From Roseibium sp. Sym1 (GTDB lineage: Bacteria > Pseudomonadota > Alphaproteobacteria > Rhizobiales > Stappiaceae), in NCBI RefSeq assembly GCF_027359675.1, contig NZ_CP114786.1, positions 1,492,501 to 1,556,500 on the forward strand: DNA of 64,000 nucleotides, given 5' to 3'. The translations under genes were made by a program, and so were the position numbers. Of the stretch, positions 23,032 through 32,631 are shown in pieces. Each line of letters starts with the position of its first letter. The first letter of the stretch is position 1. The notes under the pieces were generated by a model. That model searched no databases, had not been told where the DNA came from, and was given only the letters and a program-made list of their open reading frames with translations.

Positions 23032-23090
23032 TCTGATAATCTTGTCACGTGCATCGCGCCAGGCGGCGCGAAATGCTGAAAAACTGCTTC

Positions 23091-23113
23091 ATTGCCGGGC
23101 TTGACCCGGCAAT
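23091..23113. repeat. Intact REP-like palindrome (ATTGCCGGG-CTTGA-CCCGGCAAT)
   Basis: Perfect 9-bp arms around a CTTGA loop. The same loop with GG/CC borders (GG-TCAAG-CC or its complement) is the site where all three copies of the 312-bp element in this window have inserted, so this is an uninterrupted target unit, 71 bp from one of them. Confidence 0.7.
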
Positions 23114-23184
23114 CCAATCCGTGACTGCGCCACAACGGAAGAGCAGTAAAGGCGCCGCAACGGCCTGGATCCCATGGCCAAGCC

Positions 23185-23372
23185 CACTGCTGTCCGGTTT
23201 AACGCGGCTCAATTACTACAGGTCATTGATTCATTGTCGATATTTACACTTCTCCTGGTCCGGGACACGTAGCGCCTTACCGCTTGCGCCCCTCTCCCCC
23301 TCCAGGGGGAGACTGGAACAAGCGGCATAGCCTGATTGTGGTCTGAGGTTCCTGCTTAACCGGACAGCAGTG
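23185..23372 (-). mobile_element. Deleted copy (188 bp) of the CACTGCTGTCCGGTT element
   Basis: Ends are CACTGCTGTCCGGTT and its inverted complement. Both outer thirds match the 312-bp copies at 31850 and 32245 in reverse orientation, but the central ~124 bp between two C/G-rich CTCCCCCTCCAG palindromes are missing, leaving one such palindrome. Flanking 9-mers are GGCCAAGCC (23176-23184) and GGTCAAGCC (23373-23381), an 8/9 target duplication within an ATCCC...GGGAT palindrome. No coding capacity. Confidence 0.75.
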
Positions 23373-23519
23373 GGTCAAGCCACGGGATGACGAAGCATGT
23401 GACGAAATTCTCCTGGCCGAATTCAACCCGTTCAATTTCACACTTGACGATTACGTAAACGGCATGCTTCAAGAAGGCAACATCGGGCTTCGGCCCCAAT
23501 CCAGACGGGAGAAGATGAC

Positions 23520-31790: not shown

Positions 31791-31849
31791 TGGGCGATGT
31801 CTTTTTTGAAGTCGCTGACAGGCAACGGCATGGATTGCAGGGTCAAGCC

Positions 31850-32161
31850 CACTGCTGTCCGGTTAAGCAGGAACCTCTGACCACAATCAGGCTATGCCGC
31901 TTGTTCCAGTCTCCCCCCTGGAGGGGGAGATGTCTCCGATAGGAGACAGAGGGGGGCTCAACCTCTCGGCAAACAAGGCCTTTTTCGAATTCGCGGAACC
32001 GCTGCGCCCCCCCTCTGTCCGGTTCCCGGACATCTCCCCCTCCAGGGGGGAGAGGGGCGCAAGCGGTAAGGCGCTACGTGTCCCGGATCGGAAAAAGCGG
32101 AAATATCGACAATGAATCAATGACCTGTTGAACATGGGCCGAGTTAAACCGGACAGCAGTG
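31850..32161 (+). mobile_element. 312-bp transposase-less element, copy B
   Basis: Perfect 15-bp terminal inverted repeats CACTGCTGTCCGGTT / AACCGGACAGCAGTG. The flanking 9-bp direct repeat GGTCAAGCC is at 31841-31849 and 32162-32170. Removing the element restores an ATTGCAGGG-TCAAG-CCCTGCAAT palindrome. Internally it is rich in C/G palindromes (CTCCCCCCTGGAGGGGGAG and its partner near 32030). It has no transposase; open frames within it look spurious. A MITE-like, non-autonomous element. Confidence 0.85.
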
Positions 32162-32244
32162 GGTCAAGCCCTGCAATGACGAAATTACATAAAGCTATCG
32201 CAATTCCGGTCCACACCTCTGCTCCGTCATCCCATGGCTTGACC

Positions 32245-32556
32245 CACTGCTGTCCGGTTAAGCAGGAACCTCTGACCACAATCAGGCTATGCCGCTTGTT
32301 CCAGTCTCCCCCCCGGAGGGGGAGATGTCTCCGATAGGAGACAGAGGGGGGCTCAACCTCTCGGCAAACAAGGCCTTTTTCGAATTCGCGGAACCGCTGC
32401 GCCCCCCCTCTGTCCGGTTCCCGGACATCTCCCCCTCCAGGGGGGAGAGGGGCGCAAGCGGTAAGGCGCTACGTGTCCCGGATCGGAAAAAGCGGAAATA
32501 TCGACAATGAATCAATGACCTGCTGAACATGGACCGAGTTAAACCGGACAGCAGTG
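32245..32556 (+). mobile_element. 312-bp transposase-less element, copy C
   Basis: Nearly identical to copy B, same length and orientation, 83 bp downstream of it. The 9-bp target duplication GGCTTGACC is at 32236-32244 and 32557-32565, inside an ATCCCATGG-CTTGA-CCATGGGAT palindrome. A few substitutions against copy B show in the visible sequence (for example one base in the first C-run, and GGGCC versus GGACC near the right end), so the two copies are recent or homogenised. Confidence 0.85.
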
Positions 32557-32631
32557 GGCTTGACCATGGGATCATGCCGCCACATCGCCTCGGGACACTT
32601 CATCGAGACAATTGAACCCGGTGTCTGCAAT

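Follow-up and report, generated by a model that had tools for sequence, protein, structure and literature searches.

Short repeated elements in Roseibium sp. Sym1 are, in our reading, mobilized in trans by an insertion sequence (IS) of the IS4 family whose transposase carries a DUF4372 domain, and pasted on the axis of palindromic CGTC REPs, where both symmetry and a loosely defined core would be selected; we put the probability of this reading at roughly 0.8. The elements came to light in the window, the whole 64,000-nucleotide stretch of DNA that was analysed, which belongs to a genome of 7.26 Mb (G000 below). Visible in the sequence are the common ends, the target duplications, the choice of site, the likeness of IS and MITE sites, arms that pair although they change, and hybrid insertions that have no intact partner repeat nearby.

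Elements on the axis of palindromic repeats

The two 312-bp copies in the window (Table 1) differ from each other at 3 of 312 positions and are neighboured by an AhpD-like gene on one side and an NtrC-like response regulator gene on the other, and a third copy, of 188 bp, is found downstream of a gene of the dihydroxy-acid dehydratase type. The 15-mer CACTGCTGTCCGGTT occurs six times without mismatch, at both ends of each of the three copies, confirming the perfect inverted ends described in the first-pass annotation of this DNA; with up to 2 mismatches permitted, shuffled sequences contained 0.16 matches on average. The same annotation placed every copy between 9-bp repeats, which is exactly the case for copy 1 (GGTCAAGCC) and copy 2 (GGCTTGACC), but the duplication of copy 3 is imperfect (GGCCAAGCC versus GGTCAAGCC, 8/9 matching). 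Its main observation stands as well: excision in silico restores palindromes with 9-bp arms at both 312-bp sites, ATTGCAGGG-TCAAG-CCCTGCAAT for copy 1 and ATCCCATGG-CTTGA-CCATGGGAT for copy 2, and the element lies on the axis of REP-like repeats whose arms vary around a near-constant GG-N5-CC centre. The two copies fill both REPs of one dimer, with CGTC inside. As single-stranded DNA, copy 1 folds strongly (z = -8.8); no Rfam family of structured RNAs matched the window at the gathering threshold, on which ground we rejected a previously described RNA of this type.

Table 1. Positions of the elements, their duplications and their target repeats in the window, and of a second DUF4372 IS elsewhere in G000.
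Feature	Position	Strand	Remark
Empty partner REP next to copy 3	23088..23120	+	TTGCCGG arms
Tail half of copy 3's REP	23166..23184	.	ends in GGCCAAGCC
MITE-like copy 3, 188 bp, internally deleted	23185..23372	-	matches element positions 312-197 + 81-1
CGTC half of copy 3's REP	23373..23392	.	starts with GGTCAAGCC
REP 1, CCA-tail half	31830..31849	-	arm ATTGCAGGG
Target duplication (9 bp), left of copy 1	31841..31849	.	GGTCAAGCC
312-bp MITE-like copy 1	31850..32161	+	15-bp inverted ends; 19 near-full-length genome matches
RIME-like inner repeat	31897..32066	+	element positions 48-217; also found alone
Target duplication (9 bp), right of copy 1	32162..32170	.	GGTCAAGCC
REP 1, CGTC half	32162..32181	-	arm CCCTGCAAT, ATGACG end
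REP 2, CGTC half	32225..32244	+	CGTCATCCCATGGCTTGACC
Target duplication (9 bp), left of copy 2	32236..32244	.	GGCTTGACC
312-bp MITE-like copy 2	32245..32556	+	3 differences from copy 1
Target duplication (9 bp), right of copy 2	32557..32565	.	GGCTTGACC
REP 2, CCA-tail half	32557..32579	+	tail 1 base short relative to other REPs
Second DUF4372 IS, three copies	G000:C1:5621540-5622658, 2785213-2786325, 126298-127395		L065, L067, L069

Copies across the genome

A search of G000 with the 312-bp sequence, one of the checks that had been proposed along with a tabulation of the flanking 9-mers, gave 81 matches, 19 of them near full length (1-312 or 1-308), with two of these 19 lying in the window; the other matches were to the ends only or to the inner repeat only. 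Our table holds 29 two-ended copies of 188 to 1,271 bp and leaves out 4223027, one end of which has decayed, as well as the single ends 2801888 and 3628790. With flanks read by eye, REP halves lie on both sides of 25/29 copies, on one side only of two (1574389, 2586814) and on neither side of another two (3852724, 5506163). Seventeen of the 25 sit inside one REP, including 1779473 with a decayed repeat, and eight join halves of two REPs. An exact 9-bp duplication flanks 13 of the 29 copies and a direct repeat at 7/9 or better 19; the flanks are mirrored in 8 and neither direct nor mirrored in 2. The first-pass annotation held that copies lacking a 9-bp duplication, or lying outside palindromes, would speak against it. 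Both kinds exist in part: direct duplications are missing from 8/29 copies, apparently as a result of flanks that derive from two different REPs, and two copies lie off REPs on both sides, with two more on one side.

Copies that are 97-100% identical occupy distant loci with unlike arms, several of them between exact duplications, and the genome also contains REPs that are empty but have arms identical to those of occupied ones. On these grounds we rejected the possibility that the palindrome halves are part of the element. The same two observations make it very improbable that we are dealing with fossil or domesticated repeats that spread through recombination and duplication of REP regions, with no transposition, even though hybrid flanks (8/29 copies) and the many copies that are only 85-93% identical would suit such a history; at that identity, the copies concerned are old.

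The inner part of the element matches relatives and intergenic repeats of rhizobial plasmids. Since the inner repeat (positions 48-217) is also found without the ends, both in other genomes and in G000 (891222, 2774181, 2863400, 6380567), the arrangement is a nest, with a repeat in a MITE in a REP. We also observed relatives of 446-557 bp at G000:C1 339043, 1779473, 153214, 4195021 and 6660580, whose end regions are common with the 312-bp element and whose interiors are unlike.

An IS4-family insertion sequence with the same ends

A full-length IS with the MITE's ends had been suggested as the way to identify a transposase that was considered unknown, and the search for one was successful. An intact 1,271-bp IS at G000:C1:237669-238939 carries these ends, is flanked by a GGTCAAGCC duplication in a palindrome and encodes a 384-residue transposase (P0001). 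The IS is intact, has the MITE's ends and lies in the MITE's own genome at a site of the same type, which makes its transposase a strong candidate for the mobilizing enzyme.

Several features assign this IS to the IS4 family. Its transposase scores 112.6 bits for DDE_Tnp_1 and 88 for DUF4372, and 249.8 against the NCBIfam model transpos_IS4_1 (cut-off 115). In alignments of 41 and 40 sequences, every residue of the DDE triad (D122, D188, E293) and of the YREK signature (Y286-R289-E293-K300) is invariant or reaches at least 90% conservation. The direct repeats measure 9 bp, where about 10 are expected. The element also agrees with subgroup IS4Sa (5'-CA------T ends, 1150-1750 bp, 8-10-bp repeats) in its ends, CACTACTGT..., its length of 1,271 bp and its 9-bp repeat. 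The predicted structure of the transposase has a mean pLDDT of 87.5, and a PDB sequence search returned no match. Only the 15-18 terminal bases are common to the MITE and the IS, which led us to reject an origin of the MITE by internal deletion of the 1,271-bp IS. Being short and multicopy, flanked by target duplications and sharing its inverted ends with an autonomous element, the 312-bp unit is, by its sequence features, probably non-autonomous and MITE-like.

Matches to the transposase at E up to 1e-30 were found in 4/41 genomes (G000, G011, G012 and G040), with 96% identity to the G000 protein in the congeners G011 and G012 and 60% in G040. Both copies in G012 and the one two-ended copy in G011 lie in REPs; of the single ends in G011, 8/11 adjoin REP halves and three (L066, L075, L076) have no clear REP. 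DUF4372 is uncommon, being present in 13/385 genomes of the class, and relatives of P0001 were found in 16/397 genomes of the order.

Symmetry of target sites across the family

Of 144 loci carrying members of the family, 66 were counted as distinct clean insertions; the others had no recognisable ends (26), had too short a flank (9), duplicated another insertion in the count (12) or lacked a clean duplication (31). Several of the 66 represent the same IS in one genome (e.g., L245, L255 and L259) and 4 come from G000. The null was obtained by local position sampling and computed on 67 rows, as L064 and L111, which are reverse complements of each other, were both included.

An uninterrupted stem of at least 6 bp is centred on the duplication in 28/66 insertions (local null 0.63%), a stem of at least 8 bp in 23/66 (0.08%), and all six of the six positions outside the duplication pair in 18/66 (0.06%). 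For new sites we had set the prediction, before the search, that at least 70% would have at least 5/6 pairs: among clean sites found order-wide, 7/9 did, from 4/6 genomes, or 7/10 including one site on a viral contig. Pairing was also scored for individual arm cells. In the close clade, with 18 distinct sites, 104/144 arm cells pair (75.7 on average in 2000 shuffles, with a maximum of 92). The second clade has 53/88 (mean 37.9, maximum 52) and the remaining group 116/256 (mean 83.1, maximum 110), with the pair-type count being reached by 38/2000 and 42/2000 shuffles, respectively; this excess points to weak symmetry there, too.

Palindromic targets are clustered in the phylogeny of the transposases. 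On a tree of 66 rows, in which one insertion appears twice and from which L124 and L231 are absent, the palindrome label changes 9 times (shuffled mean 21.8, with 0/500 as low), and insertions with and without a palindrome number 18:5 in the P0001 clade, 9:2 in the second clade and 3:27 in a large group. Unlike cores, namely, CGCTTTCGCG, TGTGAAAACG, TGCGAAGGCA and GCCTGCGGGC, also lie on palindrome axes, as at L235 (GTCATACC-TGCGAAGGCA-GGTATGAC). The second DUF4372 IS of G000 (40-43% identity, three copies) uses a CGC-TTTC-GCG centre with 7-bp stems and 10-bp duplications, and L124 and L154 lie in terminator-like hairpins that precede T-runs. Among more distant relatives, L149, L153 and L157 are inserted in GGTCAGAGT/ACTCTGACC sites, a motif of RAYT-associated repeats.

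The first-pass annotation proposed that the transposase recognises a hairpin loop. Across the family this is plausible in light of the 28/66 insertions with stems of at least 6 bp; however, 38/66 have no such stem, and the enzyme may instead recognise a dyad in duplex DNA. A bolder version, which we regard as possible but would sooner doubt, is that the DUF4372/IS4 clade picks its targets by DNA structure, inserting into extruded stem-loops whatever their arms, with each lineage homing to the hairpins its host offers (CGTC REPs with a 5-bp loop, CGTC-1-like repeats with a 4-bp loop, terminators) and with the two loops of a dimer being bridged in one event that deletes the spacer.

Core versus symmetry

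An alternative to reading symmetry is that the transposase reads the 9-bp duplex core GG-N5-CC, in the manner of IS10 and IS50, with the arms being incidental and the tolerated cores occurring mainly in REPs. In the close clade, the core is indeed constrained (GGTCAAGCC and near variants) while the arms vary, and Tn5 targets are often palindromic, according to the available excerpts of PMC1525189. The distribution of one core in G000 argues the other way. In a sample of 93 GGCTTGACC sites, taken with D/H at the pattern ends only, 33 adjoin element ends, 9 are empty and palindromic (one of them, 2337498, weakly so) and 51 are empty and non-palindromic. The 33 element-adjoining sites group into 20 clusters, all of which include one REP half or more, and no occupied cluster is non-palindromic (flanks by eye; Fisher 2.8e-12). 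This contrast is confounded, as many non-palindromic 9-mers may be located within genes and so be subject to selection against insertions. The two off-REP copies (3852724, 5506163) have cores other than GGCTTGACC. Taken with the unlike cores that lie on palindrome axes elsewhere in the family, the 51 empty sites incline us to consider reading of the core by itself unlikely, though it deserves to be kept in mind.

REP dimers and hybrid flanks

Each target repeat in G000 has a stem of 9 bp and a loop of 5 bp, with AT pairs, a CGTC end and a CCA tail, and the repeats occur as dimers. They thus agree in end, AT pair, stem, loop, tail and dimers with the CGTC REP superfamily, for which excerpts of the published survey give a CGTC end, an AT pair, an 8-9-bp stem, a 4-5-bp loop and a CCA tail, with dimers mostly having CGTC outside (PMC3733652). 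A partner REP that is intact or nearly so lies within 135 bp of 13 of the 17 copies that sit in a single REP (by eye), and in the other four, which form two pairs, the partner REP is filled by another copy.

Judged from their flanks, the eight hybrids resemble dimers that have lost their middle part. Seven have CGTC on both outer sides, with one arm of the TTGCAGG or TTGCTGG type and the other of the CCATGG type, and one has tails on both; within 135 bp of the seven we saw no intact partner REP, and 153214 has a weak GGCTTGACC site close by and 2795467 a different palindrome. The 7:1 orientation and the lack of an intact partner REP within this distance disfavour an origin of most hybrids by large chromosomal inversions and would better fit local events at dimers.

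Mirrored flanks recur across the family. Among the 31 insertions without a clean duplication, 9 are mirrored at 7/9 or more flank positions, and L191, with its ends correctly placed, is a tenth. The outer sides are CGTC on both sides at L115 and L121 and tails on both at L125, and L114, L118 and L191 have outer flanks like those of one REP but carry two 9-bp core copies that are mutually inverted. At E up to 1e-20, a single such IS, with mirrored flanks, is present in each of the assemblies of L114, L115, L118 and L121, and additional IS matches are present in those of L125 and L129. Draft assemblies limit how these mirrored flanks may be read. At L193, on a plasmid of Rhizobium etli IE4771, another left end, accompanied by a REP half, is located ∼330 bp upstream of the IS, which suggests that the neighbouring partner REP is occupied by a short element.

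These cases bear on whether hybrids could form in one step, with the element's ends joining different loops of a REP dimer and the spacer being lost, as opposed to two insertions followed by recombination. The one-step route strikes us as improbable. It would suit the scarcity of doubly filled dimers in G000 (only 2, with co-oriented elements, versus 8 hybrids) and the single IS with mirrored flanks in the assemblies of L114, L115, L118 and L121. On the other hand, ordinary recombination yields the same product and is the explanation given for the hybrid repeats of ISRm22 in the excerpted text of PMC1525189; inverted double insertions may vanish as unstable palindromes; repeats collapse in draft assemblies, of which those of L125 and L129 hold more matches; and L114, L118 and L191 fit neither route cleanly.

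Comparison of orthologous loci gave no clean empty site among 11 congener loci, 10 of which provided both flanking blocks, nor did two flank searches in G011/G012. By eye, a REP pair of this kind was absent from 9/10 of the congener gaps. The tenth, L210 in G013, corresponds to window 31792-32631 and contains a REP pair with the arm types in swapped order: one REP is empty, and the second is occupied by an element of 292 bp that has the same ends, is otherwise unrelated and is flanked by a GACTTGATC duplication.

A model for insertion

In the model that we favour, the transposase of G000:C1:237669-238939 would bind the 15-18-bp ends common to the IS and the MITE, cut the element out and insert it on the axis of a CGTC-type REP through cuts staggered by 9 bp, which cover the 5-bp loop and 2 stem bp on each side. 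Target choice would depend on palindromic symmetry and the loosely conserved GG-N5-CC core, with no fixed arm sequence, as a two-fold symmetric transposase-DNA complex may prefer two-fold symmetric targets. At a REP dimer, both REPs could be hit; subsequent loss of the spacer would leave a single element flanked by halves from two REPs. Mobilization in trans, the cut-and-paste mode, the way the target is read and the order of events at dimers are all points that we infer from sequence comparison.

Comparison with known systems

That REP-targeting ISs are known, as noted in the first-pass annotation, is borne out: in the excerpts of a 2006 study, REP-associated ISs span five families, and the IS4-family ISRm22 inserts at the axis of palindromy (PMC1525189). 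Its further remark, that no description of this element was known, is in line with our literature search, in which, among the matches listed, there was no account of this MITE or of an IS4 clade targeting CGTC REPs; most subscription papers and ISfinder lay outside that search. Insertion into REPs, including by the IS4-family ISRm22, has thus been described before, and what the present analysis adds is the MITE family together with a candidate transposase for CGTC REPs.

ISRm22 of Sinorhizobium meliloti resembles the present IS in belonging to the IS4 family, in its axial insertion into REPs and in having some hybrid repeats (PMC1525189; PMC2266710). All 10 of its 10 copies lie in REPs, some with hybrid repeats for which recombination was invoked (PMC1525189), and it was placed in subgroup IS4Sa, with marked target specificity (PMC2266710), as far as these partial texts go. 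It differs in its reported 6-bp repeats, and the accessible text mentions no MITE.

Closer in sequence is ISRel1 of Rhizobium etli, with 57% amino acid identity to P0001. Our script did not find its ends in L196, the locus named ISRel1, or in the neighbour-like L197; its relatives L192 to L195 all have 9-bp repeats, two of them in clear REPs. An ISRm16-like IS of Sinorhizobium meliloti has 40% identity. Its copy on pSymB of strain 1021 (L199) is unannotated; in other strains, similar copies bear the name ISRm16. A palindrome with a 12-bp stem surrounds L199, whose 9-bp repeat lies on the axis, and the relatives L198, L200 and L202 have no such stem or no repeat. This IS differs from ours in its repeat and core and has the ends CAGGGCTGTCCGGGG.

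The middle of the MITE resembles RIME (rhizobial intergenic mosaic element), in that intergenic repeats of rhizobial plasmids match it; unlike those, the repeat is here carried inside a MITE. IS1272, of the IS1182 family, offers another parallel. It, too, has inverted repeats as targets but replaces them and makes no target duplication, according to excerpts of PMC5678879; replacement of this type was rejected for our elements, 13/29 copies of which keep exact duplications.

The CGTC REPs, finally, are palindromes of the alphaproteobacteria and form a large class; for them, the excerpted 2013 survey reported no dedicated transposase and few, fortuitous associations with transposase genes (PMC3733652). 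Compared with that published picture, one IS4 clade here repeatedly inserts into such repeats, which links a MITE family and a candidate transposase to them. Since the arms in the close clade change yet still pair, the choice between symmetry, sequence and an extruded hairpin becomes directly testable on natural targets.
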